Of a DNA stretch of 35,058 nt, positions 14,359-33,769 are shown piece by piece. The DNA lies in the NCBI GenBank assembly GCA_903844665.1, contig CAIMUS010000306.1, positions 1-35,058 on the forward strand, given 5' to 3'. A model generated the notes under the pieces. The model had not been told where the DNA came from. It ran no database searches and saw only the letters and a list, made by a program, of their open reading frames with translations. A program made the translations under genes and the position numbers. This DNA is from an uncultured Pseudomonadota bacterium. GTDB taxonomy: Bacteria > Pseudomonadota > Gammaproteobacteria > Competibacterales > Competibacteraceae. Every line of letters begins with the position of its first letter. The first letter of the stretch is position 1.

Positions 14359-17300
14359 TCAAATTGGCCTAATCTGGATCTCAACCTTACCTTCCAGATA
14401 GGCCTTCCGAAGTGCCTCAAAATTTAGCGGTGCTTCCTTATTTCGATATATTTGTGGAAAGGCAAAACTATTACCAAATCCATCAGCCAAGCGAGATATA
14501 AGCCTGACTGTCTTTCGGATATCTTCATCACTACGCGTTTCGAGAGCATTCCGTAGGACTTTTTCCGCTTGGCTCAGGGTTTCACGTAATGTGAGTTTAG
14601 TTTTCATTGGGTCACCCCAATAAATATTGGGGAATCCTATTCCCTTAAAAGAATCAAGTGCACTTTCGCAGCTAGCCAAAGCCCAGTCCATCAGGTTTGA
14701 AAATGGATCAAGCTCGTTGAATGAGTAGTCAGGTGGTGCTGTAGAAGAAGCCCATCCAACTAGCATATTAAACTCAGTTCGCATTCGCTGAAAAGCAAAC
14801 AAGTGATCGAATGTTCGCTTTTGAAACGCCTCCTCAACCGAATCTAGACACTTTAACGCAGCATCACTTTCTTCCAGGGGTTTCCAGCCACGTGTCGCAA
14901 ACTGCTCTCGCAAAGCTGTAACATGTGCATCAAGTAGTTCCGAGATATCTCTGGATTCCAAACCATAGCATTGAATTCTCGAAATTTTTGTCTCAAGCAT
15001 AGCAAGTTGATCATTAACTATTTTCCACTCAACCAATCGTCTGGCACGGTTCTGAAATTGAGTAATACGATCGGAGATAGAGGCAATTTTAGAAGATGCG
15101 CCTGACCGAATCTTTTTCCAAGTAGCTATTTCATTAACTTGGGTTAACTCATTAGCTAGCTTGCGTAAAACCAAGAGGAGATTTCCATGAATTTTGATTA
15201 ACTCTTTGGAAATTCCTGTTAAATGGACTGATAGGCCAGAAGTTGTCCAATTGGTCGGTATGTTGATTGCTCTCAGTATACCAATTTGTTGGAATAATAA
15301 TTCTCGCTTACCTTCCAACTCTTCTATAAAGTGATTTTCGACTCCTGATGACTCAAACTTCGCCTCCTCACCCTTGGCGATAATGGGACTAAAAGAATTC
15401 TCACCTTGCTTGATTGCCAGCATTCCTTGCTCAATCTCCCAAACACTTCCGCGCGCAATTGCTATCTGAACAAGCTCATGTGCTTCTTCTGAGGTCCATC
15501 CACTGCATAATAGGTTGTCGATAATGCTAATCCGAGGTAGCTTATCGTGGCGGCTTTCCTGAAGAATTCGCTTAAGCTCAATCTCACCTGGATGCTGGTG
15601 AAATCGCAGTCTAATATTACGTCCATTCTCCTCGAATATTATTAGCTGACCCAAACCTCGAATAAAACTATCCCCAGCTGCCGTACTATCCTGTTGAAAT
15701 AGCTGTAAGTATATCTCCCCCTTTTTACCGGCAATCGGCTCATCCCCTAAGCGATATGACTGGTTGTCGGCAAGTTGCTCCAGGGCTGCACGGTATTGAG
15801 CTAACCTCTCTCGCCACCCAATTCCATGCGGCAAGGGTATGTATTTTGGGTAGCGCCTGCGCATTGCTTGAACAAACTGTGCTCGAAGGTATTCGACTCC
15901 ACTAAGCTGTACGGATTTCTTTAGCCCTGCTTCTACCTGCCCCCTTATCGCGACACGGGAGACAATCTCCAATGCTGAGTGAACAAAGCTTTTCGCTTTG
16001 AATCTTACATTATCAGACACTTCCTTATCATTAATTCTTCTTTGAATTTCGGCCACGGCAGCCATCAAGGTTGCTGGCCGGAAAGGCTCTGGTGCAAGAA
16101 ATTTTTTGAATCGATCTATCTCAGCCGGCAGGGTTTGTGAGATTGGCAGTAGCACTGGAAAAACCAACCTGAGTTGGGCAAACTCCGAACTGACAGAAAG
16201 AGCGCCCATATTGTTGATATATTCGGCACGTACTTCCTTGTTTAGGTGGAAATACACCGCGAGGTCAACTTGATCAGGCCAGTGAGTTGGTTCCTGTGTC
16301 CCTACCCAAATAGCTATAACACGGTCAGGAAAATCATCATTAAATGTCCCCTGATAGTAATCCCATCCATCAAGCTCTCTATCCCTCAAGCTATCATGCT
16401 TAATCCATTTGCCGGCAGCTATTAATACCTTGTCGAGTATCGATGGTAGCAGAATCTTCTTAATCATCCCTGGCATATGTTCCACCAGCGCATCCAGTGC
16501 AGGTAATGACCCCCACACATTTGCAAGAGCATCATCGAGATCAAATAAGGGGCGACGGACTCTCTGTAGAGGCTCCAAGGCCAAGCCGCATTCAGCACGA
16601 ATTAGCAAAGGTCCAAAAAGTTCATTAATGGCTACCTTTCGCAGGGCATCACTAGGTAACCATTTTTCCAATACAGCATCAGGACAACCATTTGGGAAAG
16701 CACCTAATAATTGCACCAGAGTTTTTCTAGCTTGATCACCAGCAATCCAATTATCAGCGAGTACGGCATTCAGTACTGCTTCAAAACCAGAGCCTTCCGC
16801 AAAATATTTGAAAATCCCCCTACGAATGTCTTCAACGAACTCAAGCGGGCCGTATGCATCAACACCAGCCTCAATCGCTCTAGCGAACACATCGACAATG
16901 GTTCGCGGCCCGTTAGCAAGATCCCACCGCTCCACATACTGGCCAAGAGACATGAGTAGATCTGGATGAGGAACTGTTGTGCTTTCTCCGATAGTAACCG
17001 ACCAGCGAGGCCACAACCATTCAGGAAAAGTACGATCGTATGCAGTCTCCAGCTTGATGTGATAGCCACTCTCGCGGATTCGATGCAGAATGTCTGCGGC
17101 CCATCGTTCCATTCGGGTTTCTAGCTGATTGTCCATGCAAAGGATCACGCCGCAGCGTACTCTGTCGGTTCTCAGGCCCCACACAAGTTCCCTGAAACTG
17201 CTTAAGGAGGCTGAGTCGAGGGTCCCCAGTAACTGTTGAACTTCATCGAGAACGATCACTAAGGGGCTTTCTGCAAACTCAGCCGATTGAGCTATTTGAG

Positions 17301-17796
17301 CTAAGAAATCAATAAAACGATGTGCTTGTTCAGTAGTTCGTCGTTGCCCCTTTAGCGACTTCGAAATTTGCTCATCAATCGACTTTCGTATACCTCGAAC
17401 CGTCTGTAATCGATTTGGATATTTGGTACAAAGCAGTGCACATACAGCATCCAGATACTCGTCCAGATCAATTGCTGCTAAGGGTGGAAGTGCCGATAAC
17501 CCTTTCAATTGGCAACGACTAGCAAGCGCTAAAGCTGTAGCCGTTTTACCGAATCCGAAAGGGCCACTAACTGTAAACCACACAGCTCGATCAGATGAGA
17601 ATATCTTATTTATGAAGGAATCAGCATCACTGCTTATGGTATCCGAGAGCCACACGAGAGAAGACAATTGACTGAACCTATCGAGAACATGTTTCGGTTC
17701 ACGGATAGCCAAGGCTGCTGGAAAGGTGTCAGTAATTGGCCCAGCAGATAGGTTTTTGGTGTTTGTTATCAATTGGATTTCATCTGTTAGTCGCAT
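14359..17796 (-). CDS. Large P-loop ATPase (~1145 aa), last gene of the defence-like operon
   Basis: The N-terminal ~350 residues form an AAA/STAND-like NTPase with Walker A GPFGFGKT (about 78-85), Walker B LVIVLDEV (about 179-186) and GVILCMDN as a likely sensor strand. The long remainder has no domain I recognise; residues ~830-1000 look helical and coiled-coil-prone. An ATG start (MRLTDEIQ) after GCGAGGA is preferred over the TTG eight codons upstream; it overlaps the previous gene by 17 bases, implying coupling. A large ATPase after a small protein and a transglycosylase recalls DpdH after DpdG in 7-deazaguanine DNA systems, but I cannot confirm homology. BREX BrxC is a less likely alternative. 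Confidence 0.8.
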   Translation of the reverse strand: MRLTDEIQLITNTKNLSAGPITDTFPAALAIREPKHVLDRFSQLSSLVWLSDTISSDADSFINKIFSSDRAVWFTVSGPFGFGKTATALALASRCQLKGLSALPPLAAIDLDEYLDAVCALLCTKYPNRLQTVRGIRKSIDEQISKSLKGQRRTTEQAHRFIDFLAQIAQSAEFAESPLVIVLDEVQQLLGTLDSASLSSFRELVWGLRTDRVRCGVILCMDNQLETRMERWAADILHRIRESGYHIKLETAYDRTFPEWLWPRWSVTIGESTTVPHPDLLMSLGQYVERWDLANGPRTIVDVFARAIEAGVDAYGPLEFVEDIRRGIFKYFAEGSGFEAVLNAVLADNWIAGDQARKTLVQLLGAFPNGCPDAVLEKWLPSDALRKVAINELFGPLLIRAECGLALEPLQRVRRPLFDLDDALANVWGSLPALDALVEHMPGMIKKILLPSILDKVLIAAGKWIKHDSLRDRELDGWDYYQGTFNDDFPDRVIAIWVGTQEPTHWPDQVDLAVYFHLNKEVRAEYINNMGALSVSSEFAQLRLVFPVLLPISQTLPAEIDRFKKFLAPEPFRPATLMAAVAEIQRRINDKEVSDNVRFKAKSFVHSALEIVSRVAIRGQVEAGLKKSVQLSGVEYLRAQFVQAMRRRYPKYIPLPHGIGWRERLAQYRAALEQLADNQSYRLGDEPIAGKKGEIYLQLFQQDSTAAGDSFIRGLGQLIIFEENGRNIRLRFHQHPGEIELKRILQESRHDKLPRISIIDNLLCSGWTSEEAHELVQIAIARGSVWEIEQGMLAIKQGENSFSPIIAKGEEAKFESSGVENHFIEELEGKRELLFQQIGILRAINIPTNWTTSGLSVHLTGISKELIKIHGNLLLVLRKLANELTQVNEIATWKKIRSGASSKIASISDRITQFQNRARRLVEWKIVNDQLAMLETKISRIQCYGLESRDISELLDAHVTALREQFATRGWKPLEESDAALKCLDSVEEAFQKRTFDHLFAFQRMRTEFNMLVGWASSTAPPDYSFNELDPFSNLMDWALASCESALDSFKGIGFPNIYWGDPMKTKLTLRETLSQAEKVLRNALETRSDEDIRKTVRLISRLADGFGNSFAFPQIYRNKEAPLNFEALRKAYLEGKVEIQIRPI

Positions 17797-18622
17797 GGTT
17801 CCTCGCAATAGCTTGAGCAATTTCTAAGGCTCGTGATCTAATAAGTATCGCTGGTGGATCACCTCCTAACCAAGTTACACTCGCTTTATTAGCCTGGTTT
17901 GCACCAAACATTTCAAGCACTTGATCACCGCTCATCAACAACGATACCCCGATAAGGTCGAGCACGAGAGGATGGAGAACTATAGGATTTCCAAAATAGC
18001 TACTTGCTCCGGCTAAGGCATAGTCAACGGTATCAGCGGATGGACTGACTAATGGATTTATTCTTAACCTTCCGTTTTGCGAAATGACTAAGGGTGGGTC
18101 TAACGCCATAAGCCAACCAGTAACTCCAGCAACGCTGGAACGGCTAAAAGAAACGGACCTACAATTAAATCTTTTCTTTGCAGAAAGTGTAACATAAATA
18201 ACGATCTCATCCGCTGTGACGCCATGAATACCTTTTTCACGAATGAAACGGCAGACCTCTTTGTAAGACCAAGAAGGATTCGCTACTATATATTTGTCAT
18301 CCCATAACCAATAATAGAGACTGTGTACTGCTGCTTTAAATACACTAGACCACCCAGTATCTAAAGATGAAAATTTTTCTCCCAATGATGTGAGGCAGTA
18401 TCTATCTTCCTGTTTCTGGACCAGCAGCACATCACTTAATGAGGCAAGAATTTTCTCCACCCCTTTCCGGTGACGTAGGGGGGAGCCTAGCTGATCAGCC
18501 AATGCTTTAAGACCGGCTGTTGAAGTTGGTTCATCGAATAATGATAACAGCCTAAAAGTTTCCCAACCCAATTCCGGGGTAAAATCATGCCTTGTGTGGA
18601 AGCGATGTGTCAGTGCTCTCAT
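17780..18622 (-). CDS. Hypothetical protein, possibly winged-helix (~280 aa), DpdG-like by position
   Basis: The N-terminal ~100 residues contain a pattern of short helices (FRLLSLFDEPTSTAGLKALA...GVEKILASLSDVLLVQK...YCLTSLGEKF) that resembles a winged-helix domain with a conserved wing. The rest is of no known family. I chose the ATG at MRALTHRF, ten bases after the preceding stop. A TTG seven codons upstream is also possible; neither has a strong ribosome-binding site. It lies between the transglycosylase-family gene and the ATPase gene, and its end overlaps the ATPase start. It may connect DNA recognition to the ATPase, an inference from position only. Confidence 0.7.
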   Translation of the reverse strand: MRALTHRFHTRHDFTPELGWETFRLLSLFDEPTSTAGLKALADQLGSPLRHRKGVEKILASLSDVLLVQKQEDRYCLTSLGEKFSSLDTGWSSVFKAAVHSLYYWLWDDKYIVANPSWSYKEVCRFIREKGIHGVTADEIVIYVTLSAKKRFNCRSVSFSRSSVAGVTGWLMALDPPLVISQNGRLRINPLVSPSADTVDYALAGASSYFGNPIVLHPLVLDLIGVSLLMSGDQVLEMFGANQANKASVTWLGGDPPAILIRSRALEIAQAIARNHATNR

Positions 18623-18632
18623 GGCCGAAGCA

Positions 18633-20060
18633 TCAGCTCGCAACCGAATGTTCCAACTTAGAATCAGAATTTAGATGCTCTGTCATCTCGCTGAACACCA
18701 ATGCGTTATGCCACATCCGCACAAAACGGTCTTTCTGCAAACGCTGGAAATCAGAACAGAATGGGCATTTATGTCCAGTCTTTTCCGCCTGAGCATAGAA
18801 CTCTTGCGCAGTCTGGCCAGCGCCTAGGGAGATGCCTGAACCTCCATGGCTCACGTTTTTTCTACTCATAAAAGGCAGATAGACGTTTCCGTATCCGGCC
18901 GTCCGGAGCCAACCGGAACTATCGTAACTCGTGGCAAATATAGATGGAAACTCCGGTAATATACGAGGGCTGCTAACACCAAACAGGTGAAGAGATGGCC
19001 TACTCCGAACCGGTTCGATTAGATTCCTGACAAACTGCAATCTTGCACGCGCCTGAGCGGTGATCAGATTGATCTCGGAGTTTTTTCCGGAGGTATCAAA
19101 GCTTCCAAAGCCAAGATGTTTTATTCCTTGTTCTTCAAATGCCTTAAAACAGTTTTTTAACTGTTCGGACTGATGGCCTTGTATAACTCCCATCGTACGG
19201 CCTCGGATATGAACCGGTAAGCGATAGAAAAACCTTAGCCCTTCACTAATGGTTACATAAACTCTTTCTTCGATTTCATGTGTACTCAACCCAGATATAG
19301 GAGGAAAATCTGGAAGAACAAAGAAATCCCCCCAATCATTGTGTTCATAAAAATCAAGCAACTTTGAAAATAGCTCATCATATCTTATTTTTTGTTGCTG
19401 TACAAAAAATCCACCAGAATCAAACGTTACCTTTACTCCCCACTCATCGTTCATGTGTTTCACCCAGCCAAGAGCTCCAGGATCAATGAATAAGGGAGTA
19501 ATAATGCATCTTTCGAATGGCCGCCTCATAGGGCCTTCTTTTTCCCACATGCTAACCATATGAGCAAGATCGTTCGTGGAGGCAGTAAGGGAAGCAACAA
19601 AGGTGATCTTTCGGCTTCTCTCTAGTAGCAGTCTCCAAACAAACAGGCGCCTGCTTCTCCCAGCAACACTCCGCATGGCGTCTCGAACGAATCCCAAGCG
19701 TTCGTAGAATAAGTTAGCCTGCAAATCGACAGGACATTTGAGCGAGACCTCTCGACTGCCGATTTTTCGTGCACTGGTTTTTAGTGCTTCAATAAGTGCT
19801 GCTCCTATCTTCTGCCCAGTGTAGGCTGGATCCACACCGATCTCGTAAAGCGTAGTCCGATTATCCCGCCGATGGTGATACCTGGCGAAGCCTAGAACCT
19901 TTCCATTAGCTTCTTTTGCAACCAATAACCCGCCTTTTGTTGCGCTTTCCTCAAACACGGAACGGGGTTGGAAACCCAACTCATGTCGCAATAGATCTGC
20001 GACACGCTTGGCTCCTGAAATGAGAATTACATCAGTGGCTTCGGTTACTTGAAATTGCAT
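18633..20060 (-). CDS. GNAT acetyltransferase fused to tRNA-guanine-transglycosylase-family domain (DpdA-like)
   Basis: This 475-aa protein has two domains. Residues 1-145 are a GNAT N-acetyltransferase, with the acetyl-CoA loop in VDPAYTGQKIGAALI (76-90) and NLFYERLGF. Residues ~150-460 have the signature of tRNA-guanine transglycosylases: FDSGGF (Asp214, general acid/base), GVIQGH, HLFGVSSP, SYDSSGW (Asp380, likely nucleophile), then a zinc site H430-x-C432-x2-C435 with His451. Standard enzymes use C-x-C-x2-C and His, so one cysteine appears replaced by histidine. No PUA-type RNA-binding domain is seen. In this context the target is more likely DNA than tRNA, as for DpdA, which inserts preQ0 into DNA. 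The GNAT part might acylate the inserted base; that is speculation. Confidence 0.85.
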   Translation of the reverse strand: MQFQVTEATDVILISGAKRVADLLRHELGFQPRSVFEESATKGGLLVAKEANGKVLGFARYHHRRDNRTTLYEIGVDPAYTGQKIGAALIEALKTSARKIGSREVSLKCPVDLQANLFYERLGFVRDAMRSVAGRSRRLFVWRLLLERSRKITFVASLTASTNDLAHMVSMWEKEGPMRRPFERCIITPLFIDPGALGWVKHMNDEWGVKVTFDSGGFFVQQQKIRYDELFSKLLDFYEHNDWGDFFVLPDFPPISGLSTHEIEERVYVTISEGLRFFYRLPVHIRGRTMGVIQGHQSEQLKNCFKAFEEQGIKHLGFGSFDTSGKNSEINLITAQARARLQFVRNLIEPVRSRPSLHLFGVSSPRILPEFPSIFATSYDSSGWLRTAGYGNVYLPFMSRKNVSHGGSGISLGAGQTAQEFYAQAEKTGHKCPFCSDFQRLQKDRFVRMWHNALVFSEMTEHLNSDSKLEHSVAS

Positions 20061-20087
20061 ACTTTGTATCGGATCGCAACTACCAAC

Positions 20088-23000
20088 TTAGAAGATACAA
20101 TCGGCGGGACGGCGCACGACTATAAAGGGGTTAATACTCATGATTTTATGACTAGGGTACTGGGCAGATGCGGCATTATAAGCAGCAAGGTATTCAGGGT
20201 GGTCGTCTTGCCATAGGGGATGCCGTTCGAGTGCAACTACTTGCCGGTGCTGATGGACATAACCATTTAAGCTACCCAAGCGGACCGGAGTTCCGTATCC
20301 AAGTCGGGCCAGGGTCACAGCAACTCGTGCGCCCGATCCTTGGACGAGTATGCTCCATGGATTGGGCGCACTGTTGCACGGCGAATCCAGATCGATAGTC
20401 GCGGTAGATGAATTAGCGAGCCGCGCCATATCCAGCGCAAGCCTCCAGTCCAGCAGGCCATGGTAGGGCAGATTGTAGAAGTCACGCAAGCACCAATTAC
20501 ATGAACTGTCACATTCGCTGGCATGCGCCGGTTCCAGTGGTCCCAGAGCAACAGTTCTGCACCAGCGCTCAGCAATAGTCCCTTGAATGGTAGGATCGGA
20601 TTCGGCTAATAGAGTGTTCAAATTTGCGGCAAGCTTTGTACAGTAGCCAGCACCGTTTTCCAGTTGATCACACAGGAACGCCTCTCCGCTCGGACGGTTG
20701 TTCCGCGATACTGTTCGAAAGCCTGCCTGAAGTTCAAGTGCATCCACGTCAAGAAAAACTCCTGCAGCGATACGCAACCAGAAAGCGAAGGAGTACCAGG
20801 CGGCGCGCCCCTCGACCGTTGTGGGATCGGCGTATATGCCCGTAGGCCAAGTCGCCACATCGACGAGCAGAATATCAGTTTGTCTCCTCGATAGCAGTGC
20901 AATCTTCTGCTTTCGGCCGGTCGCGGACACTCTTGGGACAGGAGTACCATCACTTTCGAAGAGTGCTCCCTCCACCACGTATGCTCCTGGCGCCAGGTTA
21001 CCATCCACGATAGCTTCGCTGAACTCGAAGCCTTCGCTTCCACCGTTATCATTGATCGATACAATTTCGCTGCTGAGCGCGGTCACGACTGCGTTTTGTA
21101 CGGTCTGCGGTACAACCTGCCCTTGTGTCACACTCATCGTGGGCCGCGTCGACCGGGGTACCCACTCAAATTGCCCTTCGAAATCCTCCGGTTTCAAATT
21201 GGTGAAGAATCCCTTGGGCTCCCGCGCATCAACAACGGTGAGCGCCATACCACAGCCTAAGATGGGACATGCCTGCCCTGATCCTGCCTGAGGCGTATCG
21301 ACGACAGCCTGGCAATTTCCACAGCGGCCTACATAACTCTGGTTGGGGGTTGAAAGGGATGGGTAGAACCCCGGCCCGGTCCTGACTATGTTCCCTGCTG
21401 GCATGAAGGTTACAACACCAGCAGCCTTATATACCGCCTTGTCTTTTACGGTCTGAGAACCAGGGGCGAATTGGCTGATAGCAATATCGAGGTTTCGATC
21501 GACCAAACCTGTTTCAGGCGGCCAGGGGACCGCTGAGCGAGGCCATCCTGTGTAAAGCAGTCGTACTCGGGTCGGGAAACCGAACATCGGCAGGCGTCCC
21601 GCATTGGCGAGACGTTCGCTTAGGGCTTCCTGGGTGTAGCGTGGATCGGCAGCGATCCTTCGTATTTCGGGAATGAGATCAACACGCAGATAGTGCTTCA
21701 ACTGAACGCGGAGAACCTGACCGCCACCACCTTCCCAAGAAGTGCCTACAGCCAGCGCGTCGAATACTTCCTCCAGCTGCCTGTCATTCTGTGAATCCTG
21801 CAACCATGCATCAATGGCTGGTTCATTCGCAGCCCAGTCAGTGACATTGCCAAACTCTCCGTGTACATTCTCGCTACCAGAAAGTCCAACTCCGCCGGAG
21901 GCGTGCGCGAATGCTCTTCTCAAAACTTCCTTGATCAGAACCCGCCGGAAAATCGGCTCGCTTCGTACATCCACATAAGGAGCCGGCGGTCGATCCCCCG
22001 CGATTTTTTCAGGTCGCTCGAAATAAAAATCATCATGGCTACGGCCCCTACAGAACGTCACGGCAAGAGATACTCCTCCAGCCCGGCGACCAGCGCGGCC
22101 GACCCGCTGCTGATAGTTGAAGCGACTCGGCGGCATGTTCGCCATCATGACCGCATTCAGAGACCCGATGTCCACCCCTGCCTCCATAGTCGTGGTAACG
22201 CTCAACACATCAATCCCATGGACTTTCTTGATCTCAGTTTCGACAAAAATCTCCTGAAATCTACGTTGTCGCACTGGACGGTCGTCGCGATTTGTCTGAC
22301 CGGTGAGTTCTTCGCAGTTCATCCTGAATGCAATATTACTGTGCCCTTCGGTCAACTGCACGTAGTAATCAAACTCTCCAAACTCTCCAAACTCTCTCGG
22401 AATACCCGATCGAACCAATTTAACCACTCTGCTGCCCTTCGATCTGCTGTCTTTCGAGCATTCAGGACAGCAGATTACATCGTGGAGGTAGAACGCATTG
22501 CACTCAGGGCAGCGGTAGCCTTGAGAGTCAGCCGGCCGAGGCACCAGCGATAGATTAAATGGGTCCAGTACAAGCCCTGAGCCTGAAGGAATTCCCGCCT
22601 CCGACTGCCGCAACTGCTGTTCCACATCTGTGGGTGAAAGGTTGAGATTGTCTACATAGGCTCGCGAGAAGCGACGAAGACTTCCGTTCTGACCTGGGAA
22701 AAAGCCGTCGGCGCGGTTATGCTGCCGCCTCACCCCAAGCTGCCGAATCACAGCCTCGGTTGCGGCGATGAGTTGTGGCTGCGGATTTCCGTATGGTCGG
22801 TAGCTTACCCATCCTTGCCCAAGTCCTTCGAGTGTTCTCGCCATATGAGGAAACAAGGCGTACATAATCTCGGCAACCAGAAACTCAGCCATCCGTTGGC
22901 GATGTCGTTGCTGCCCCTGGGGTTGCGGTGTTTTGGAGGTAGGCAACTCCTGCGCACCACTCTGAACCTGGGTCCAATCGAAACACTCGAACCAGAGCTG

Positions 23001-25841
23001 CTGGCCACGACCCCGGCCTTCCCAATAGTTAAGAGCCTCGTAAGACGATCCTCCAGGACACATTCCGATTTTGAGAAGCTCGGATTCCACCTTCTCAGTC
23101 AAATTCCGCAAAGGGACTCGATCTGGGTAGTTTTGAATAAGAGTTAACCATTCCTGCCGAGCGGGCTGATTGACGACAGGTACATTGTAAAGCCAGCCGA
23201 TCGCTTCTGCACGGATATTCGGATCCAAGGCCAACTGAAATTCGGTCGCTCTTGCGCCGTCTTCCGGCTCTGGCAGACCAAAGACGACAGCATGCAGAGA
23301 CGGATTCAAGGTCTGCAAGTGCGCGATGCTTGGAGCCAGTTTATGTTGTCTCAGGAACGAAACGAGGCCATCCCAATATCCACGAAATGCCTGGATGAGT
23401 GCCAAGCGTAACATGTCACGGAAGTGATCGCGTTCAATTCCACCGGCAAGTTTTGCCGCGTCCTGGCGGCTATCGGAGAAGATGACCAGCTTTTTAGTCT
23501 TTTGAGATTCCTGCCCCAACTCACGAAAGATGCCATCCGCTAATACTTGAGTGGCCTTCTGGAATCCGGTTCGATGTACGCGAAGGGGTGACTTGAACGT
23601 CTTTCTTCTTGCGTAATTGGCATCACATCGCGGGCACTTTTCGGGCATGGCCCTGGCATCTGGTGGAGATCCTTTAATCTGATACCACCATCCAGGGATG
23701 TCATCCGGTCCGAGTGTTGTAGTAGCAACCCTTTGAGCGGAAAGCTGCCCCGAAGCGCAGTTGAGAGTGGCTTTAACCCATTTTCGGCCAACTTTATCAA
23801 CGTCCCATTCCATGTCGGTGGGGGTAGTTGCCTGCCAAGGCTCGCTAACACGCGGCACCGGCCAGAACACGGCATAATTTCCATGTCGCTGTATTAATTT
23901 CACCCGATCAGGCATGTGCTCAAGATCAGCCTGATCAGGGGTCAAGAACGTTGCAGTATTACCGCCAAGTTGCCTCTTAGCTTTGTATCCACCCAAGAAG
24001 ACTTCGCCACAAACCTCACAAACAATCAGATCGAGAACACGGCCACCACACGAACACATGAGGAGGTGGCTCGAATGAATCGCTCCAACCGTCGGCCTAT
24101 CCTCTGACCGTATGACAGGACGATCCTGGGAAACAGCCGGATCGCTGCAATCAGGATTGCAACACGCCCACAGATTCATCAAATTATGGAAGAACAGATG
24201 CCCGCGGACCGGTTGAAAAGAGCGTTGCTGATATCTTGACATGCCAACTGCCAACAGTAGACCGCGAAGCGTGTCAGAGACCACGTCATCCGAAGACTTG
24301 TTAGCGGACGCTGTAGGAAACATGACTTTGTCGATCTTGTCAATCGACGCAGGTCGAAGCGTGCCATCCGAGGACACGGCGAGGCAGGCATCCCGTAAAG
24401 AATCCGAGGCGCCTTTAGCGTGCAAAGCGCGTCCCAGCAATTCCTCGTCCGTCTCTCCTGGCTTACGTCCGACTCCCAAGGTTCCCGCAAGCATACCCAT
24501 CTCAGTTCTTACCGCCGCACTGCCCATATCGGGTGGCCCACCCTTCCACCAATTTGGCTGAATACTCTGCGCAAACTGTGCAAACGCACCCTCATAAGCG
24601 GTGAGAGACAATCGTGCCCCCTGAGACGGCGGTAGCTGAGTGCTGGTGATAGGAACAAATCGATCACGGCCGAAAAATTCCTTCAAGAACTTGCTACCGC
24701 CTTGACCAGGGTCCAAGCTGGCGGTGGTGGCGATAATGCGCAGCTTTGGAGAGTCTGGTTCAAGACCGAGCCGGTGCAATAGCAGCCGGATAATATAGGC
24801 AACCTCCGTTCCGGGCGTACCGCGGTAGGCGTGTAGCTCGTCAATAATCAAGAAGAATTGCCGCTCTTGCTCGTCTCCTTCACTCAGCCATTGCCTGGTG
24901 GTATCGAAGATTTGGTCCTCAATGCTGCGCATCAGCATGATGTTGAGCATCGAGTAGTTGGTGATGAGAATATCCGGGGGTGATTCTTGCATGTCCCACC
25001 GGGACCACATTTCCCCACCATCCAGGCGAGGAAAGAAATATTGGATATCACGATCGAGCGTAGGATCCTGATGCAGGGCGCGAAGAATTTCCTCACGTTG
25101 TTGCGAAAGATCCATGAGTGCTTTTTTAAGACGCCGTTCTCTGGTTGCATCGGGACGACCGGCAAGTGGTGTAAGCCCGGTATAACGGCCGAACATAATG
25201 CGGTTACCACCGCGGTTGCGATCAAACCAGACGTGGATGGAATCGTCGTCCAGGGCTGACCTTAACCTCCTGAGTTGGTCTTCAACGAGCGCGTTGAGCG
25301 GATACAGAATGACGGCACGCAGAGCCGGCTGCCGCTTAACGTGAGACCATTGAGAGACACGACCTCCATCCGGGTTCACATTGTCATCCCACCAGATTCG
25401 GTTCGCAGGCGCTTGGCCAGCCGGCGCCCACGTTTTAGATTCTCTCGCTAGCTGTGCAAAGAGCGGAAGGAGAAAGCATTCAGTCTTTCCCGAGCCTGTA
25501 CCAGTGGTCACGACTATATCGCGACCGTTAAGGATTACCTCTCTGATGCTCTCCCATTGATGAGTATAAAGCTGATTGGGTTTTGGAATAAGCCTTTCGG
25601 CCAGGAATCTGAAATCTCTAAACCCGGCAGGCAACTGATTCGCGGCCGCATCCACATCCAATCTTGATGAGGGATATAGAGGAATCGTTTCCAGTACAGG
25701 CAGTTGACTAAGCACACCAAGTTTGCTGAGGACCGCGTCCCGTTCTTTAGTCAAGATTTGCGACCGGAGGGGGAAAGCACTCTTGATATAAAGGCGATAG
25801 AGCAGTTCAAGCCGCCTGTAAGAACCAATAAGGTCATGCAT
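20088..25841 (-). CDS. Giant DExH helicase with DUF1998-type C-terminus, DruE-like
   Basis: This 1917-aa superfamily 2 helicase shows a Q-motif-like YTHQ (~95), Walker A TGTGSGKT (113-120), ITNYSML, Walker B IIDELHAY (DELH 334-337), ATTASL, then TTTMEAGVDIG and QRVGRAGR (~1241-1248). Cysteine clusters near 560-610, 755 and 1110 look like zinc ribbons. The C-terminus has CDSSCNWCLRDFYN (~1772-1785), the DUF1998/MZB signature. Size and layout match DruE, the hallmark of Druantia phage-defence systems, better than DISARM DrmA/DrmB, where helicase and DUF1998 are separate proteins. DpdJ of the dpd system is another relative. The ATG has a strong GGGAGG site and lies six bases after the preceding gene. 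Confidence 0.88.
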   Translation of the reverse strand: MHDLIGSYRRLELLYRLYIKSAFPLRSQILTKERDAVLSKLGVLSQLPVLETIPLYPSSRLDVDAAANQLPAGFRDFRFLAERLIPKPNQLYTHQWESIREVILNGRDIVVTTGTGSGKTECFLLPLFAQLARESKTWAPAGQAPANRIWWDDNVNPDGGRVSQWSHVKRQPALRAVILYPLNALVEDQLRRLRSALDDDSIHVWFDRNRGGNRIMFGRYTGLTPLAGRPDATRERRLKKALMDLSQQREEILRALHQDPTLDRDIQYFFPRLDGGEMWSRWDMQESPPDILITNYSMLNIMLMRSIEDQIFDTTRQWLSEGDEQERQFFLIIDELHAYRGTPGTEVAYIIRLLLHRLGLEPDSPKLRIIATTASLDPGQGGSKFLKEFFGRDRFVPITSTQLPPSQGARLSLTAYEGAFAQFAQSIQPNWWKGGPPDMGSAAVRTEMGMLAGTLGVGRKPGETDEELLGRALHAKGASDSLRDACLAVSSDGTLRPASIDKIDKVMFPTASANKSSDDVVSDTLRGLLLAVGMSRYQQRSFQPVRGHLFFHNLMNLWACCNPDCSDPAVSQDRPVIRSEDRPTVGAIHSSHLLMCSCGGRVLDLIVCEVCGEVFLGGYKAKRQLGGNTATFLTPDQADLEHMPDRVKLIQRHGNYAVFWPVPRVSEPWQATTPTDMEWDVDKVGRKWVKATLNCASGQLSAQRVATTTLGPDDIPGWWYQIKGSPPDARAMPEKCPRCDANYARRKTFKSPLRVHRTGFQKATQVLADGIFRELGQESQKTKKLVIFSDSRQDAAKLAGGIERDHFRDMLRLALIQAFRGYWDGLVSFLRQHKLAPSIAHLQTLNPSLHAVVFGLPEPEDGARATEFQLALDPNIRAEAIGWLYNVPVVNQPARQEWLTLIQNYPDRVPLRNLTEKVESELLKIGMCPGGSSYEALNYWEGRGRGQQLWFECFDWTQVQSGAQELPTSKTPQPQGQQRHRQRMAEFLVAEIMYALFPHMARTLEGLGQGWVSYRPYGNPQPQLIAATEAVIRQLGVRRQHNRADGFFPGQNGSLRRFSRAYVDNLNLSPTDVEQQLRQSEAGIPSGSGLVLDPFNLSLVPRPADSQGYRCPECNAFYLHDVICCPECSKDSRSKGSRVVKLVRSGIPREFGEFGEFDYYVQLTEGHSNIAFRMNCEELTGQTNRDDRPVRQRRFQEIFVETEIKKVHGIDVLSVTTTMEAGVDIGSLNAVMMANMPPSRFNYQQRVGRAGRRAGGVSLAVTFCRGRSHDDFYFERPEKIAGDRPPAPYVDVRSEPIFRRVLIKEVLRRAFAHASGGVGLSGSENVHGEFGNVTDWAANEPAIDAWLQDSQNDRQLEEVFDALAVGTSWEGGGGQVLRVQLKHYLRVDLIPEIRRIAADPRYTQEALSERLANAGRLPMFGFPTRVRLLYTGWPRSAVPWPPETGLVDRNLDIAISQFAPGSQTVKDKAVYKAAGVVTFMPAGNIVRTGPGFYPSLSTPNQSYVGRCGNCQAVVDTPQAGSGQACPILGCGMALTVVDAREPKGFFTNLKPEDFEGQFEWVPRSTRPTMSVTQGQVVPQTVQNAVVTALSSEIVSINDNGGSEGFEFSEAIVDGNLAPGAYVVEGALFESDGTPVPRVSATGRKQKIALLSRRQTDILLVDVATWPTGIYADPTTVEGRAAWYSFAFWLRIAAGVFLDVDALELQAGFRTVSRNNRPSGEAFLCDQLENGAGYCTKLAANLNTLLAESDPTIQGTIAERWCRTVALGPLEPAHASECDSSCNWCLRDFYNLPYHGLLDWRLALDMARLANSSTATIDLDSPCNSAPNPWSILVQGSGARVAVTLARLGYGTPVRLGSLNGYVHQHRQVVALERHPLWQDDHPEYLAAYNAASAQYPSHKIMSINPFIVVRRPADCIF

Positions 25842-25847
25842 AACGTA

Positions 25848-27158
25848 CTACCTCCCCTCTAGCGGTATGCCCAGTTTTTCTGTAAGGGACTTGGCAATAT
25901 CTTTAGGAACATTGGAGTAGACCAACCAGCCCGCGTTTATCGTAGGTAACCGTCCGGAACAAAGGACCAGGACACGCTCGTACAACTCTGGCCAGCGCTC
26001 AGTCTGTCGAACTGCAAGTGATCCACTACTGGGGTCGAAGCGCACCTCCTGTAGCGCTCCGCGTCCGTGAAGCGCCAGGAATCTGAGTCCATACCAGTCA
26101 CCTCTGATCCATTTATCACGGTGTGCATCATAGTATAAATAGTAATCCCCTCGCACGGAATCGGCTCGGCGAAACTCGTAAAAGCCGCCGGTTCCTGTAA
26201 ATATACAGTCTGCAAATCCAGAGTCATCGAACATGCGAAGGTTAAACAAGGCGGGTACTATTCCCTCAACCGGCAGGAGGCCGGCGCACCATGCCATCAG
26301 ATCGGGAACCCTTTGAGCAAACAACTCTGCGGCGGGAACAGCTTTAAGCCCGTATCGTGGCGCCAGTTCGGAAACTGCTGTTTCAACAGCCGCTTCATTC
26401 TGAAAGCAAACTTTTATTAACGCTGGCCCGGCGCCGTTTGGTTGCCCCTCCTCCTTGACTACGCAAGCCTCCTTCAATGCCTGGATGAGCTTTGCATCGC
26501 GCCCACCACAAAAAGCAAATTCAATGTCTCCATCATACCGAGCGATTTGAGCAAGCACGGATGGAGCAACCGACCAGTGGTGACCATCATTTGATGATTC
26601 GACGTGCCCCAACAGCCGAAGGCGACGGAAGATGCGCGATGCTGGGGTAGTACTGTCGGATAGGCTTAATGATTGGCATCCTGCGCGGAAGATAGGGAAG
26701 GTACCCATCCCGACAGCGGATAGCCATAGCATCAGATGGGAAAATGGCTCTGAGCGATCTTGAACGCTTGGCTGATTAGTTGCCGGGATTAAGCCGAATG
26801 GATCTTCTGCATCCTCGTGCCGTGCTACCCAACGAATGGTGCGTGCATAGTCATGGACATCAATTTCTGCTGAGACCATTGGCTTGATTTCTTCGCGTGA
26901 AAAAGGTTGAAGTCTACCATGAATACAAAAAGGTGATTTTAGAGCGGGTAGTCTTAACAAACCTTGCAACGCCTCTGGAGGCTCGCCGGGTGCCGCACTG
27001 TCAATTGCCATGAAGAGGAAAAATTGTTTCTTAGGGCCCTTCTCAAAACATACGCGGGGGACATATCGCCCAAGATCCTCAGAATGAATCTTCTGAGAGA
27101 TCTGTTTCAGTATTAATTCTGCTTTTCCAAAGCATCTAAAGGCTGCATACCATCTCAT
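25848..27158 (-). CDS. Unrecognised ~436-aa protein upstream of the helicase
   Basis: No family is recognised. The protein is soluble; residues ~185-220 (ASRIFRRLRLLGHVE...HHWSVAPSVLAQIA) could form a winged helix, and the C-terminal part is beta-rich (GGFYEFRRA, YYLYYDAHRDKWIRGDWYGLRFL). The chosen ATG lies seven bases after TAGGAG; a TTG two codons upstream would be too close to that site. It lies between the 555-aa gene and the helicase gene with 13- and 6-base gaps, so the three are probably one functional unit. In Druantia type II two accessory genes (druF, druG) precede druE; this gene would hold the second place, but homology is not shown. Confidence 0.7.
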   Translation of the reverse strand: MRWYAAFRCFGKAELILKQISQKIHSEDLGRYVPRVCFEKGPKKQFFLFMAIDSAAPGEPPEALQGLLRLPALKSPFCIHGRLQPFSREEIKPMVSAEIDVHDYARTIRWVARHEDAEDPFGLIPATNQPSVQDRSEPFSHLMLWLSAVGMGTFPIFRAGCQSLSLSDSTTPASRIFRRLRLLGHVESSNDGHHWSVAPSVLAQIARYDGDIEFAFCGGRDAKLIQALKEACVVKEEGQPNGAGPALIKVCFQNEAAVETAVSELAPRYGLKAVPAAELFAQRVPDLMAWCAGLLPVEGIVPALFNLRMFDDSGFADCIFTGTGGFYEFRRADSVRGDYYLYYDAHRDKWIRGDWYGLRFLALHGRGALQEVRFDPSSGSLAVRQTERWPELYERVLVLCSGRLPTINAGWLVYSNVPKDIAKSLTEKLGIPLEGR

Positions 27159-27171
27159 AGCCAAGCTCCTA

Positions 27172-28839
27172 TCAGCCGAGAGCCTCTAACGAAGCTCCAC
27201 AAAGCCTTGCACCATCGAGTTCTATCATATCCCTACAGGCGAGACGTGCGGATTCCAGTTCATTCCATCCTATGATTTTAATCAGTCGCTGCACAGAACG
27301 TCCGATAACTTTTGCTTCAACCCGATAGTCTCCAGGGTTTCCCCAAGAGACAGGAAATGAGGTTCCTGTGTGTCGAGCGCCATCAAGCATCACAGCTTCA
27401 TCATGAATCCGAGTGATCCTAATTTGTGCTTCAGGATAGAAGGAGAATATCGTTAGCTCCGGACCATAGCCGTGGAGCCATCCTGAGCGGGTCGGAACCC
27501 TTAAGCCACCACTAGCGCCAACGCTGAGTGGTGCCGATGGTTTGAGTGCCTCAAATAGTTCTTGATCCTGTATAAAAACTCCAGACCATGCCTCAGAAAC
27601 AGCCATGCAGTTCCTGATTTCGAGCCATTCATCATCCAATACTTTAATAGACTCTCCCTCCCACTCAATTAACCCTTCCTCTTTCAGCATGATTAACTCA
27701 CTGAGAAGCTCTGGAACAAGGAGCAACAAGAAAGGCTCGGCAAGCTGAGGTCCAGTCCAACCGGCTAAATCCCCAGAATCAGGGTCTTCAGGATCCTGAA
27801 CCATAATCCAAAACTTGCGTTTGGGAAGCACCACGTGATCGATGTCAAAGTTTCCATTGACTGGAATTCGAACGCCTTCTCGCAGTTCGCGCCCCGTCAA
27901 TCGACCGAAGGGATACAACCAACCTGGTCGCTCCTGAGTGAGCACGAAATTCTTCCCATCGATTTCGATGGTAAGCTGACCAATTGCCTGGCCTCTGGGA
28001 GCCTTGGGATGAAAGTGATAAGTGATCAACCCAGTGATGAAGTCCACTGTACGATAGATACCTGAACGGAGGGTTCGCACCCTAACGCCAGTGGCAAGCC
28101 TGTCATCTTGTGGATTCTCGCACCAGAGTTCATATAGTTGGTGAATAGCCTCTTGAACGGCTGATCTTCGCTCTCTGTCTGCACCAAGCAGCTCGCGAAG
28201 GTGCTGAGGCAGGTTGATCTCTTCTGCGCGAACACGAGCCGCAAGCGTAGCGGGATCCATATCCTCTGAGAAGTGCCACTCTACGAAGAGGCGTCTCAGC
28301 CGGTCCTTATCAGCTTTACGCAGTAGCGCCTGCGATAAGGAATAATTGATGAACTTCCATGATCCTTCACCTGAAACCGCTGATGGTAAAAACCCGCGCT
28401 CCTGCAACCATTTATTCCACTCTATCCAGAGTGGTTCTTCCGCCTCGCTTCCGTGTCGCATGCCTTCCGGCCTACCCTCCCCCAAGGGTAAACTCAGCAC
28501 TCTGCGGAGTCTATGGAAGTAATTGATTTCTGATATATCTTCCTCATCCGCCATGTACGTAGCTGCGAGGACACAAGCACACAAAAAAGTTACTCCATTC
28601 GGTTCTCTAGCAGCATTCCGGCCACGTAGGCTTCTAAGTGTTACCCTACCGCCAGCATCAATGACTCGTGTGGAGAGCGCATGCTGAAAATCAACTACTG
28701 CGTTGTTGGTTAATCCGATCACTCGTCCCAGTCGGGTTAATTCGTCGTCGTCGACCGCTAAGAATATGCTGCTCCCCCTTGGAGCCCCCTCTGTGAAATG
28801 ATGAACTAACGCTGAGTTCCATTGATCGTAAGAGGTCAT
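27172..28839 (-). CDS. Unrecognised 555-aa protein, first gene of the defence-like operon
   Basis: No domain is recognised with confidence. The N-terminal third contains a helical segment with SNNAVVDFQHALSTRV-like spacing (LTNNAVVDFQHALST) and a possible loop GRNAAREPNG. The middle is helical and charged; the C-terminal half is beta-rich with several Trp-rich turns. The ATG has AGGA about ten bases before it. This is the first gene of the six-gene run, so the promoter should lie between it and the repeat-rich stretch at 28870-28910. It would hold the druF place if the cluster is a Druantia type II relative. That is inferred from order only. Confidence 0.7.
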   Translation of the reverse strand: MTSYDQWNSALVHHFTEGAPRGSSIFLAVDDDELTRLGRVIGLTNNAVVDFQHALSTRVIDAGGRVTLRSLRGRNAAREPNGVTFLCACVLAATYMADEEDISEINYFHRLRRVLSLPLGEGRPEGMRHGSEAEEPLWIEWNKWLQERGFLPSAVSGEGSWKFINYSLSQALLRKADKDRLRRLFVEWHFSEDMDPATLAARVRAEEINLPQHLRELLGADRERRSAVQEAIHQLYELWCENPQDDRLATGVRVRTLRSGIYRTVDFITGLITYHFHPKAPRGQAIGQLTIEIDGKNFVLTQERPGWLYPFGRLTGRELREGVRIPVNGNFDIDHVVLPKRKFWIMVQDPEDPDSGDLAGWTGPQLAEPFLLLLVPELLSELIMLKEEGLIEWEGESIKVLDDEWLEIRNCMAVSEAWSGVFIQDQELFEALKPSAPLSVGASGGLRVPTRSGWLHGYGPELTIFSFYPEAQIRITRIHDEAVMLDGARHTGTSFPVSWGNPGDYRVEAKVIGRSVQRLIKIIGWNELESARLACRDMIELDGARLCGASLEALG

Positions 28840-29058: not shown

Positions 29059-30023
29059 TTACAGGCCCAATTCCGCCAGCGATTGCATCAGTACGGCACG
29101 GCTGATCAGTTCCTCCAGCTTGTTGGCAGGCCAGTGTTCCACCCGTTCGCGAACGGCCTGATTCAACTCGCCAAACCGCGCTTCGAGAATCTTCACCACC
29201 GCCTCACGCTGCCCTTCAGCTTTCCCCCGCTGCAACCCTCGTTGCAAACCTTGTTCCAAACCTTGTTCCAAACCTTGTTCCAGCCCCTGTTCAAACCAGG
29301 TCGTACCCATCGTCTTCACCTCTTTGAAAGCATCGTCGGCCAGTAACCGCTCGAATTCCTCCTGCTCGGCGCCGGCGGCCAGTTCCAGATAGGCCTGCAC
29401 ACATTCAGCCAGCAGAAACCGCTGCTGCTCCGTCGATGGCTTTTTCGCCAACCGCCGCAAGGCTTCCGCCTTCAGCCAGGCCCGCCGGTCTGGGGGCACA
29501 TGCATCAATGCCGCCAGCGCGATACCCAGCACGTTATTCCGTTCCAGGTAGGTCAACGCTTCCAACTTGGGCAGCCCCACGTACAGATAGTTGAAGCTGA
29601 GCACCTCCAGCGGACCATACCGTTCCCGGTAGCAGTCCGTCCCCAGCCCTTCCAGTCCGACCCGCAGGTAGACCGCCACCGGCAGCACCGGCAGGTCATA
29701 GCTCTGCCGCAGATTGGCATAGTACCAGTGCATGCGGCGGCGCTGAACCGTCAACGAATCCGCCGACTCCACCTCGAATGGAGCAGCGACAGCCAGGCTT
29801 CGGCTTTGCCGGACTGCGCTGCCACCGGCCGGCGGGTCGGCAGTTTAGCCACCAGATCCAGCACCCGCCGCTCCCCCTGCGGCGGATCGGGAAAAACCTC
29901 CTTGTCCAGCCATTCCACCCGCGAAAAGTCGAAAGTCTCCGCCCAGTCGGCAAAGAACAGCGCAAAGAACTCCGGCAGGAAGGTCTTGAGCAGGGTCTTG
30001 AAACGTTGGTCGTGGTCGTGCAT
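29059..30023 (-). pseudogene. Rpn/YhgA-type PD-(D/E)XK nuclease gene, frameshifted
   Basis: The N-terminal piece (MHDHDQRFKTLLKTFLPEFF...LDLVAKLP...KAEAWLSLLH) and the C-terminal piece (VESADSLTVQRRRMHWYYANLRQSYDLP onward) belong to one Rpn-family protein but lie in different frames. The break is at 29772-29780, where CATTCGAGG replaces what should be CAT-NTC-GAG. One missing base would restore LLH-(I/V)-EVES, the nuclease core strand. The tail has the family's EQGLEQGL repeats and a RFGELNQAVRERVEHW domain. Rpn proteins are recombination-promoting nucleases found in many copies. It was probably intact until recently, because both halves remain clean. Confidence 0.8.
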
Positions 30024-30347: not shown

Positions 30348-32927
30348 TCACGCTGTACCGCGAAAAAGGATCGATACAGGGGTTTCTGGGTCGTCCAGCA
30401 GCCGCTTAAAAAGAGGTCCTCTTAACTCATCCAGAGATGAAAACTGCATCTGACTTAGGTGACGCTTGGCTTCCATGAGATCACGCTTTCGCGGCTTGCC
30501 TCCCCAAGTACGTGAATTAAATATTTCAATCAGTACCCGTACCAACATGCTGCCCGGCGCTGCGTTGCTCAAAGCCTCGGCATTGACCCATTCAGTAATC
30601 CATTTCTCGTGATCCTTAATATGGCCATCCGGATCATCTGCGAGAACGCAGAGCCACGCCTGAATAGCTGCTGCAACCAATTGCGCACCAATAAACGTGA
30701 CGTCGGCACGGTACTGCGGCTGCAAATCCAGTTTGTTTAGCGCGCTCCACTGCCTTGCAAGATCTTTTACAACAACTAAGCACTCGACCGGAGGCTTGAC
30801 CAATAGCTTTGAATCAGTGATCTCAAGTCGATCAATCAAGTGCCCGAAAACATCGGCTGCCAATACTTCGGCCTCATACCGAACTCGCACCAACTGTGCC
30901 AACGTCGTATCGTTGGCCTGACGCTTGGTAGGTATCGCTACACGCCGCCGCCCTATGTCTGTTAGTCCCCATTCTTCAAGAATGGCAAGCGCGCGACTCA
31001 ACAGGGTTCTATGGCGTTGCAACCAGTCATGGGCGTGACTTCGCATCGCCGCTGAGCCATCAACCTGCATACGGGAAACAAACGCAGCAAAGTAGAGCGC
31101 CTCATTACCCTGCGGATAAGAATCATCTTCGCCGTCTTTGCCAATGTCAGTCGTGGCAAAGGCAACCGCCGTGTTTCCAACAGCCTCGGCAAGCCGAAGC
31201 GAACTCCATCCTTGCGCCAAGTAGCCGAGTCCAATACAAAGCAAGGCGCTATACCCGGTTGGATCGGCCTTTATCAGCTTTGCGACCGGCGGTATTAATC
31301 GAGGGTTTGATGAAGTGCGTCGAACTCTACCCACCGATGGGTCTGTTTCATTCGAATCCCAGTGCAGCTGAATTACGAACTGCTGCGCTTGGCTTGGGTC
31401 TTGCGCATCCAAAGGCAACGCTAGTGCAGGCAAACTTACGGTGGGTAGTTGTCCTTTTTTGTTAAACGAACCGATGTTGAGTTCTGCGAAAGTCGACGCA
31501 AAGTCGCGCGAAATCGCGTCCCGCATACTTCTCAGATACGCACCTCTAGAATGCTGATCCAATCCACCCAACTTCATCCGCAAATTGCGCATCCAGCGCT
31601 CTCTGTTCGGGGCGCAACTGACCGCCGTGGAGGAGAGAAGATCTTTGAAGTCATTCAAAAATTTTTCAACATCGATGTCTCCGGAACCCTTTTGTTTGAG
31701 AGCGCGAAGCGCGTATGCACCAGGCGCCTCGTGATGCTCGTTGGTGTCCTGATCACTGTACCCTTCGTCTGGTTGTGCAAAGCCATCAATTCCCATCGCA
31801 CTGAGTGGGTGGACCAAACGAACCGAGCCAACTGCCGCGTTCCGCTGCCGCCATTGCTCCATCAACGCACGCTGCTTATTGGAACCCGTCAGCAGGTTTA
31901 CTCGCCAATAACGGCCACTTTGTGGATGATTTTCATTGAGGAACTCCGCCAGTGCGACCAAACGGGCAAACGCATAGACGTCAGAAACCTCTCTTGCAGC
32001 TATCTTGGCCTGATAGGTTAGCATGCTCTCATCAAATTCGTCTGGCCGCTGCTGTGATTTACCGTCGTCAACGGCCAAGTGCTCGTGGGCTTGAAACAAT
32101 ATGTGGTCGACATATTCCCGCAACCTTCGGTTGGGATCATGAAAGGCAAAGACAGCCGTTTTGATAAAAGCATACCTTTCGACCGCTGGATGAAGCTTTA
32201 TCAACGAACCCAAAAAAATTCCGAATGCTTCCCGAGCAAGTTCCTTTACACGAACCTCAAAAATATTTGCTTTAGGTCGGAAGGCGAACGCTGCTCCCGG
32301 CTCGGCCGAGGGAAAGAAAGCGGTGTCCTGCATCGTGTCGAGTCGGCGCCGCCGCAATTCCAAAGTCCGAGACACCTTACCCGACGGCGAGTTCTCACGC
32401 AGCAATGAAAAAATGGCGCTAATGTGTTTAGACGTATCGGCCACACTCTCAGCTTTGGCGAGGCCTTGGTAATGGGCCGTTAGCGAGGACATCAAGTTTG
32501 GTACGTTGCGTTGCGCCTCAAACGACACGGCAATCGCCATTGCGTCGAGCTCACGGTCATGTTCGGGCGTGAGCAAGAATCGCCGGCTTTGAACACCAAG
32601 GGTTTCGCGAAACCGTCCAAACAAGAAGTAGGAAACGGCAATCGCAATACTGTCTATCACCTCGCGTGCGCGCTCATCGATTTGAGTTCCTTGTGACGGA
32701 GCATCCTCTGGCTTGCCCAAGGCATAAAGACTCGGCCACTGATTAACATAATCGCCTGGGGCTAATTGAATGTATGTATGCAACACGTCCGTATCGACAA
32801 ACCAGAGATCGATGAAATCCCCGTTCCCTTCACTCGAATCAGAAGGGTTTCCCCACTCGCTCAACTTCTCGCGAAGGCGTGCGATGTGTACAGACGAAAA
32901 TCCTGTCGATGTAACAGTCTTAGGCAT
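30348..32927 (-). CDS. Unrecognised ~859-aa protein, third gene of the right accessory operon
   Basis: No family is recognised. The protein is soluble, mostly alpha-helical, and has a near-N-terminal segment DLWFVDTDVLHTYIQL that could be a hydrophobic strand with acidic residues. No complete nuclease or ATPase motif is visible. The ATG giving MPKTVTSTGF is preferred over one eight codons upstream. It overlaps the preceding stop as TAATG and has GAGGCGG at correct distance. This is strong evidence for translational coupling with the 276-aa protein, so the two probably work in one complex. Confidence 0.75.
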   Translation of the reverse strand: MPKTVTSTGFSSVHIARLREKLSEWGNPSDSSEGNGDFIDLWFVDTDVLHTYIQLAPGDYVNQWPSLYALGKPEDAPSQGTQIDERAREVIDSIAIAVSYFLFGRFRETLGVQSRRFLLTPEHDRELDAMAIAVSFEAQRNVPNLMSSLTAHYQGLAKAESVADTSKHISAIFSLLRENSPSGKVSRTLELRRRRLDTMQDTAFFPSAEPGAAFAFRPKANIFEVRVKELAREAFGIFLGSLIKLHPAVERYAFIKTAVFAFHDPNRRLREYVDHILFQAHEHLAVDDGKSQQRPDEFDESMLTYQAKIAAREVSDVYAFARLVALAEFLNENHPQSGRYWRVNLLTGSNKQRALMEQWRQRNAAVGSVRLVHPLSAMGIDGFAQPDEGYSDQDTNEHHEAPGAYALRALKQKGSGDIDVEKFLNDFKDLLSSTAVSCAPNRERWMRNLRMKLGGLDQHSRGAYLRSMRDAISRDFASTFAELNIGSFNKKGQLPTVSLPALALPLDAQDPSQAQQFVIQLHWDSNETDPSVGRVRRTSSNPRLIPPVAKLIKADPTGYSALLCIGLGYLAQGWSSLRLAEAVGNTAVAFATTDIGKDGEDDSYPQGNEALYFAAFVSRMQVDGSAAMRSHAHDWLQRHRTLLSRALAILEEWGLTDIGRRRVAIPTKRQANDTTLAQLVRVRYEAEVLAADVFGHLIDRLEITDSKLLVKPPVECLVVVKDLARQWSALNKLDLQPQYRADVTFIGAQLVAAAIQAWLCVLADDPDGHIKDHEKWITEWVNAEALSNAAPGSMLVRVLIEIFNSRTWGGKPRKRDLMEAKRHLSQMQFSSLDELRGPLFKRLLDDPETPVSILFRGTA

Positions 32928-33757: not shown

Positions 33758-33769
33758 ATATTTATCCAG

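Follow-up and report, generated by a model that had tools for sequence, protein, structure and literature searches.

A divergent Druantia type IV unit adjoining a predicted base-exchange module suggests a composite restriction-modification-like defense locus

The window analyzed here is the whole 35,058-nucleotide stretch of contig CAIMUS010000306.1, from an uncultured bacterium of the phylum Pseudomonadota. Six minus-strand open frames fill positions 14359-28839 and appear, from their sequences, to constitute a composite restriction-modification (RM)-like system that corresponds gene for gene to no named system. The first three make up a divergent Druantia type IV unit in the order DruF-DruL-DruE (DruFLE). 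The last three, referred to here as the trio, form a second unit, a predicted base-exchange module consisting of a GNAT domain fused to a tRNA-guanine transglycosylase (TGT)-like domain, an SspB-like protein, and an SspC/BrxC-like ATPase. This pairing is also present in cyanobacteria and Chloroflexota, and its recurrence suggests an undescribed immune system that marks self and attacks the unmarked. Both modules probably act as one functional unit. That the trio places a 7-deazaguanine mark in host DNA, while Druantia IV restricts unmarked DNA in an RM-like phage defense, is a more guarded prediction, held at slightly better than even.

The open frames measure 555, 438, 1917, 475, 287, and 1153 amino acids (aa) in operon order and are separated by 7, 6, 27, -11, and -41 bp, in agreement with the initial annotation, which had described six same-strand genes with tiny gaps or overlaps. 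Model quality below is the predicted local distance difference test (pLDDT) score.

27172..28839, minus strand: DruF, 555 aa; PADLOC DruF2/DruF4 match at 2.5e-23 over residues 2-195, and a profile-profile match
25848..27164, minus strand: DruL, 438 aa; PADLOC DruL4 match at 6e-21 over residues 143-433; likely ATG start at 27158
20088..25841, minus strand: DruE, a YprA-family superfamily 2 (SF2) helicase, 1917 aa; PADLOC DruE4 match at E=0, 1527 bits, full length
19626..20060, minus strand: GNAT domain, residues 1-145 of gene 4; Pfam Acetyltransf_1 match at 1e-14 over residues 40-124
18633..19619, minus strand: TGT/DpdA-like domain, residues 148-475 of gene 4; PADLOC DpdA match at 7e-6; AlphaFold model with pLDDT 81.5
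17780..18643, minus strand: SspB/DUF4007(BrxA)-like winged-helix DNA-binding protein (predicted fold), 287 aa; model with pLDDT 77
14359..17820, minus strand: SspC/BrxC-like AAA ATPase, 1153 aa; AAA_22 match at 8e-7 and weak PADLOC SspC match at 1.2e-6; likely ATG start at 17796

The trio, defined as TGT, SspB-like protein, and ATPase, was found at 11 loci, a small sample based partly on metagenome-assembled genomes. DruFLE adjoins it in eight, a DruE remnant accompanies it in one, and neighbors resembling the BREX-Related Capture (BRC) systems flank it in two.

Locus 1, the window: DruFLE and trio on the same strand
Locus 2, IMG/VR contig 3300045922_000840 (L061; the viral label is the database's): TGT-SspB-like-ATPase-671aa-DruF-DruL-DruE, contiguous on one strand
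Locus 3, plasmid of Oscillatoria nigro-viridis PCC 7112: trio convergent with DruFLE
Loci 4 and 5, cyanobacterial genomes G559 and G561: trio convergent with DruFLE
Locus 6, cyanobacterial genome G759: DruFLE, a BRC-like set (HerA, PglZ, and a second ATPase), and the trio in one island
Locus 7, genome G560: trio, and ~6 kb away a DruE remnant of 75 aa
Loci 8 and 9, genomes G1114 and G1106, drawn around a Chloroflexota genome: DruFLE and trio divergent; the TGT lacks a fused GNAT, and G1114 has a separate one
Locus 10, Chloroflexota genome G558: short contig with a PglZ-like neighbor; no DruE found in the genome
Locus 11, Haloplanus plasmid: queC/queE/queD-type genes, TGT, SspB-like protein, ATPase, PglZ-like protein, HerA, and a separate GNAT; a BRC system

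The joint loci occur in Cyanobacteriota, Chloroflexota, the window's host, and the IMG/VR contig, and display four arrangements: DruFLE-trio on one strand (window), trio-671aa-DruFLE on one strand (L061), convergent (cyanobacteria), and divergent (Chloroflexota). Across all 11 loci the TGT fold and its catalytic residues are intact. In a sample of 339 cyanobacterial genomes, two have the trio TGT (E < 1e-100) and 11 a long DruL (at least 300 bits); both trio genomes carry the long DruL, in one island each time (hypergeometric p ~0.001). The neighborhood search that the initial annotation had proposed returned the six families together in other genomes, and because all six cluster elsewhere too, the set is not a product of chance.

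The linkage could nevertheless reflect two independent systems lodged in one defense island, one a Druantia IV and the other a modification system of reduced, BRC-like type, since islands collect defense genes and DruFLE usually stands alone. The trio also exists without DruFLE in Haloplanus and G558, and in G759 DruFLE adjoins a complete BRC-like set that includes PglZ and HerA. On the DruE tree the trio label requires three changes, with forks too weakly supported to distinguish a single origin from multiple ones. Yet DruFLE or a DruE remnant stands alongside nine of the 11 trio loci, in unrelated hosts and in all four arrangements, and the modules form one tight co-directional run in both the window and L061. 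Moreover, without DruFLE the trio would be left effectorless in most such loci, as no PglZ was found in the host genome (G000), G559, G560, or G561. Coincidental neighbors are thus considered unlikely, and a single functional unit is the preferred reading of the linkage.

Further genes surround some of these loci. The island of G759 (L069/L068/L079-L081) contains DruFLE, an 1811-aa AAA/STAND-like protein, HerA, a PglZ-like protein, a pair of BrxC-like ATPases, a GNAT-TGT, and a PRTase-CE protein, a juxtaposition of BRC with Druantia IV. A 667-671-aa NTPase/helicase-like protein accompanies DruFLE in two IMG/VR contigs (L061 7336-9351; L075 15813-17816), lying upstream of it in one contig and downstream in the second. 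In G1106, a second pair of SspB-like and SspC-like proteins is encoded near the hybrid locus (L122 3-3650, minus strand), with no TGT seen beside the pair.

On sequence grounds, genes 1-3 are assigned to Druantia type IV and not to type II because DruE, DruF, and DruL are present while DruM and DruG were not found among the six genes; PADLOC defines type IV as DruE, DruF, and DruL without DruM or DruG (PMC8565338). General profile scans covered nine proteins, the six operon genes and P0007-P0009, and DruM and DruG had no match in any of them. The comparison with type II made in the initial annotation is superseded accordingly, and the two proteins it left as unknown now have names, DruF and DruL, while its DruE-like helicase matches DruE4 over the full length. 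Profile-profile comparison aligns gene 1 with canonical DruF over its full length (probability 100%, 506 columns), the PADLOC match being confined to the N-terminal third. Gene 2 aligns with canonical DruL at 99.9% over model columns 148-442 (hhalign), from about residue 141, and its N-terminal ~140 aa are an addition absent from canonical DruL. A shifted boundary yielding a short DruF and a long DruL was excluded, as DruF aligns full length and the DruL N-terminus is unmatched in canonical DruF. The DruF and DruL profiles found no solved relative. DruE contains a Walker A motif (GTGSGKT), a DELH box, and the motif QRVGRAGRR; its weak PADLOC matches to DpdJ/DpdF lie far under its DruE score. 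A further DruE locus of the host, at 36% identity a distant one, comprises DruF, an unknown protein of 688 aa, a DruL-like protein, and DruE (G000:C35:23518-28920; L060 7482-17868).

The transglycosylase recognized in the initial annotation is borne out by profile and by fold, gene 4 combining GNAT and TGT domains. The only PDB sequence match of the GNAT-TGT family profile is DpdA, a DNA-guanine transglycosylase, although the match is weak (0.002). Foldseek with the TGT-domain model retrieves the DNA preQ0 insertase DpdA (7ui4) at 1.3e-9, by a fold common to tRNA TGTs, and the NCBIfam DpdA equivalog model scores 26.6 bits, far below its 200-bit cut-off. When the family is aligned with the tRNA TGT of the host itself, the aspartate of the DSGGF motif (D214) and the nucleophile D380 are kept in 11 of 11 relatives; D251 is conserved as well. 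The zinc site (H430/C432/C435/H451) is equally kept in all 11, as H-C-C-H in place of C-C-C-H. The host encodes a separate housekeeping tRNA TGT (534 bits) and the preQ0 synthase QueC (229 bits); therefore preQ0 should be available and gene 4 should be surplus to tRNA needs. Identification of gene 4 (P0004) as the housekeeping TGT is excluded on the same grounds, the host having its own complete enzyme. Genome searches used the TGT domain alone because the full-length GNAT-TGT query drew mostly unrelated acetyltransferases. With the TGT-only profile, no second copy was detected among 299 genomes from the phylum of the host, and a first viral scan with a single protein as query returned no match.

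A role for gene 4 on tRNA or another RNA, either in RNA-level defense or as a queuosine paralog, would be in keeping with its nearest solved folds, which include tRNA TGTs (VIA Z 24 over ~290 residues). Such a substrate is highly improbable, however, given the complete tRNA TGT already in the host, the predicted DNA-binding and DNA-modification scaffold formed by the partner proteins, the absence of any tRNA TGT from the PDB sequence matches of the profile, and the altered zinc site. DNA is accordingly the predicted substrate.

The partner proteins were a small possible winged-helix protein and a large ATPase in the initial annotation, and both descriptions hold with greater precision. The gene 5 model resembles SspB (6juf) with a VIA Z of 14.3 over 248 residues, against 9.7 for the next, unrelated match, and Foldseek returns SspB at probability 1.00 and E 2e-3. 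The likeness is one of fold alone, as the gene 5 sequence profile did not recover SspB in the PDB. SspB is a DUF4007 protein homologous to BrxA (PMC12839542; PMC9240713). Gene 6 encodes an AAA ATPase with Walker A (GPFGFGKT) and Walker B (VIVLDE) motifs and a weak SspC match, and it is homologous (E 2e-36) to a Haloplanus protein annotated as BREX ATP-binding, itself above the Pfam BrxC_BrxD cut-off. The PDB sequence matches of gene 6 were dismissed as coiled-coil noise, and the Pfam DUF6079 and DUF4007 models themselves matched none of the operon proteins. In Ssp and type-4 BREX, an SspB-like and an SspC/BrxC-like protein together serve as the scaffold for DNA modification (PMC12839542).

These components suggest two exchangeable modules, a DruF-DruL-DruE effector (module A) and a marker composed of the GNAT-TGT, the SspB-like protein, and the SspC/BrxC-like ATPase (module B). 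In the marker, the SspB-like protein would select the site and perhaps nick there, the ATPase would load or scan, and the TGT would exchange guanine for a preQ0-type 7-deazaguanine supplied by the host's own pathway; the GNAT domain may acylate the base or a partner. Detection or reading of the mark would fall to DruF and DruL, and invading DNA that lacks it would be unwound and destroyed by the DruE helicase. The queC/queD/queE-type genes adjoining the Haloplanus trio favor this scheme.

Several findings weigh against it. The trio and DruFLE lie on opposite strands in cyanobacteria and Chloroflexota, the ATPase frames of G559 and G561 are broken, which may reflect real decay or assembly error, and the DruE of G560 is a remnant. 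The DpdA sequence match is likewise weak, at 0.002. DruFLE without the trio is commoner than DruFLE with it, accounting for nine of the 11 long-DruL cyanobacterial genomes (six of the nine loci were read on both flanks or up to the contig end), and trio-less DruFLE of the same sub-lineage is found on Calothrix PCC 6303 and Deinococcus plasmids and on one IMG/VR contig. Being frequent without the trio, DruFLE does not need such a mark. Druantia III recognizes replication intermediates, and DruE of other types works without a self-mark (PMC13192584).

The last two points would suit the opposite polarity, where the trio puts its base in the replicating DNA of invaders and the marked DNA becomes the target of Druantia, or where the exchange itself damages phage DNA: many genomes apparently tolerate DruFLE without the trio, which would make a protective mark unnecessary, and type III DruE acts on DNA intermediates (PMC13192584). 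On the other hand, host DNA is what the known TGT-based DNA systems (Dpd) and SspBCD-type scaffolds modify, and the modification marks self (PMC12839542), and nothing in the locus points to selective action on phage DNA. Attack on marked DNA is thus regarded as decidedly unlikely, and the marking of host DNA as self is retained as the preferred mechanism. If correct, Druantia IV gains a testable self/non-self logic in which base exchange takes the place of methylation, and the TGT module extends from BRC to a second effector class. SspB/SspC-like pairs would then be suggested as a general scaffold for plugging in different DNA chemistries, and the putative GNAT-linked 7-deazaguanine may be a new DNA base.

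The initial annotation reported no methylase and proposed that a base-exchange enzyme could take its place. None of the six genes matched a methylase in PADLOC, Pfam, or NCBIfam profiles, and the replacement gains plausibility from the DNA cytosine methylase found at other DruE loci, located upstream of DruF in the Druantia IV locus of Nostoc C052 and near DruE in two IMG/VR contigs. DruFLE often has neither a TGT nor a methylase nearby, so a modification enzyme is not obligatory, which tempers the proposal. The Druantia unit appears to pair with differing modification modules, or with none visible. A bolder and tentative proposal, rated somewhat below even, is a new class of RM in which a TGT on an SspB/SspC-like scaffold provides a possibly acylated 7-deazaguanine as the self mark for a Druantia helicase. 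Were it true, methylase-bearing Druantia loci would be built on one plan with this locus and differ in the mark, and BREX-, Ssp-, Dpd-, and Druantia-type effectors would be able to exchange modification modules with one another.

PADLOC, as suggested for the locus at the outset, matched Druantia IV components, and the six genes correspond to no named system gene for gene, consistent with the earlier statement that no known system fits. DruE, DruF, and DruL are all present in the type IV order, but DruF is 555 aa instead of about 690, DruL carries its N-terminal extension, and the three added genes fall outside the type IV definition (PMC8565338). Close relatives of the trio were published in January 2026 within BRC systems (Rakesh and Krishnan, NAR 2026, PMC12839542), which share with the locus a GNAT/TGT, a DUF4007 (BrxA/SspB-like) protein, and a BrxC-like large ATPase. 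HerA is universal in BRC, and the BRC paper is silent on Druantia (PMC12839542). Here, however, HerA, PglZ, and a STAND-NTPase were not found, and Druantia IV takes the effector position. HerA had no match in the window (tblastn with the Haloplanus and G759 proteins) up to the contig end at 35,058 or among the nine scanned proteins, and PglZ none in the window or the whole host genome (G759 query). Membership in BRC is excluded because neither was found.

Dpd, which places 7-deazapurines in DNA, likewise combines a DpdA-like TGT with a YprA-family helicase, but that helicase is DpdJ, whereas DruE here belongs to the Druantia branch. DpdB, DpdC, and DpdD-K are not represented among the six genes beyond the weak DpdJ/DpdF matches of DruE. 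The hybrid of Druantia and Dpd-type systems first proposed therefore holds as Druantia joined to base exchange; "Dpd-type" was too specific, with no Dpd component beyond the DpdA-like TGT domain. BRIGADE also joins Dpd-like base modification to a YprA helicase of the ARMADA/Druantia clade, although it is reported from haloarchaea only, and its loci typically encode a pair of YprA helicases and a PLD nuclease together with a dedicated cluster for 7-deazaguanine biosynthesis (PMC12458937). The window has one YprA helicase, with no PLD nuclease or preQ0 biosynthesis genes among the nine scanned proteins. The phosphorothioate systems Ssp and type-4 BREX share the SspB-like (DUF4007) and SspC/BrxC-like pair, but SspA and SspD, responsible for sulfur chemistry, are absent and a TGT stands in their place. 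Among the papers searched, none links Druantia with 7-deazaguanine and a transglycosylase, or DruE with preQ0.

Two further gene sets were noted. In cyanobacteria, three genes recur together that encode a 344-aa DpdA-like TGT, an unknown protein of 540-550 aa, and a HerA-like ATPase (L071 1664-5881; L073 9957-14161). On a plasmid of Nostoc CENA543 (L030 450-4411), a GNAT joined in one protein to a long unknown region is encoded beside an EVE-domain gene and an AAA ATPase, a possible modified-base system.

The six-gene stretch is likely an acquired island, since its guanine-cytosine content (~45-56%) is lower than that of most of the window's left part (~52-69%), which holds ordinary chromosomal genes (KdpD, CobD, a CobQ-like amidotransferase, and SelR). 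Promoter and terminator scans of the locus gave chance-level results only. Near the contig end, three adjoining large minus-strand genes (867, 276, and 358 aa) form a cluster at 30348-34846; they have no credible Pfam, NCBIfam, or PADLOC match, and the 867-aa protein no plasmid relative. A DUF4351 protein (29059-29772, minus strand) lies between this cluster and the six genes. A predicted tRNA-Arg at 10509-10605 on the plus strand falls inside the CobQ-like open frame and is probably spurious.

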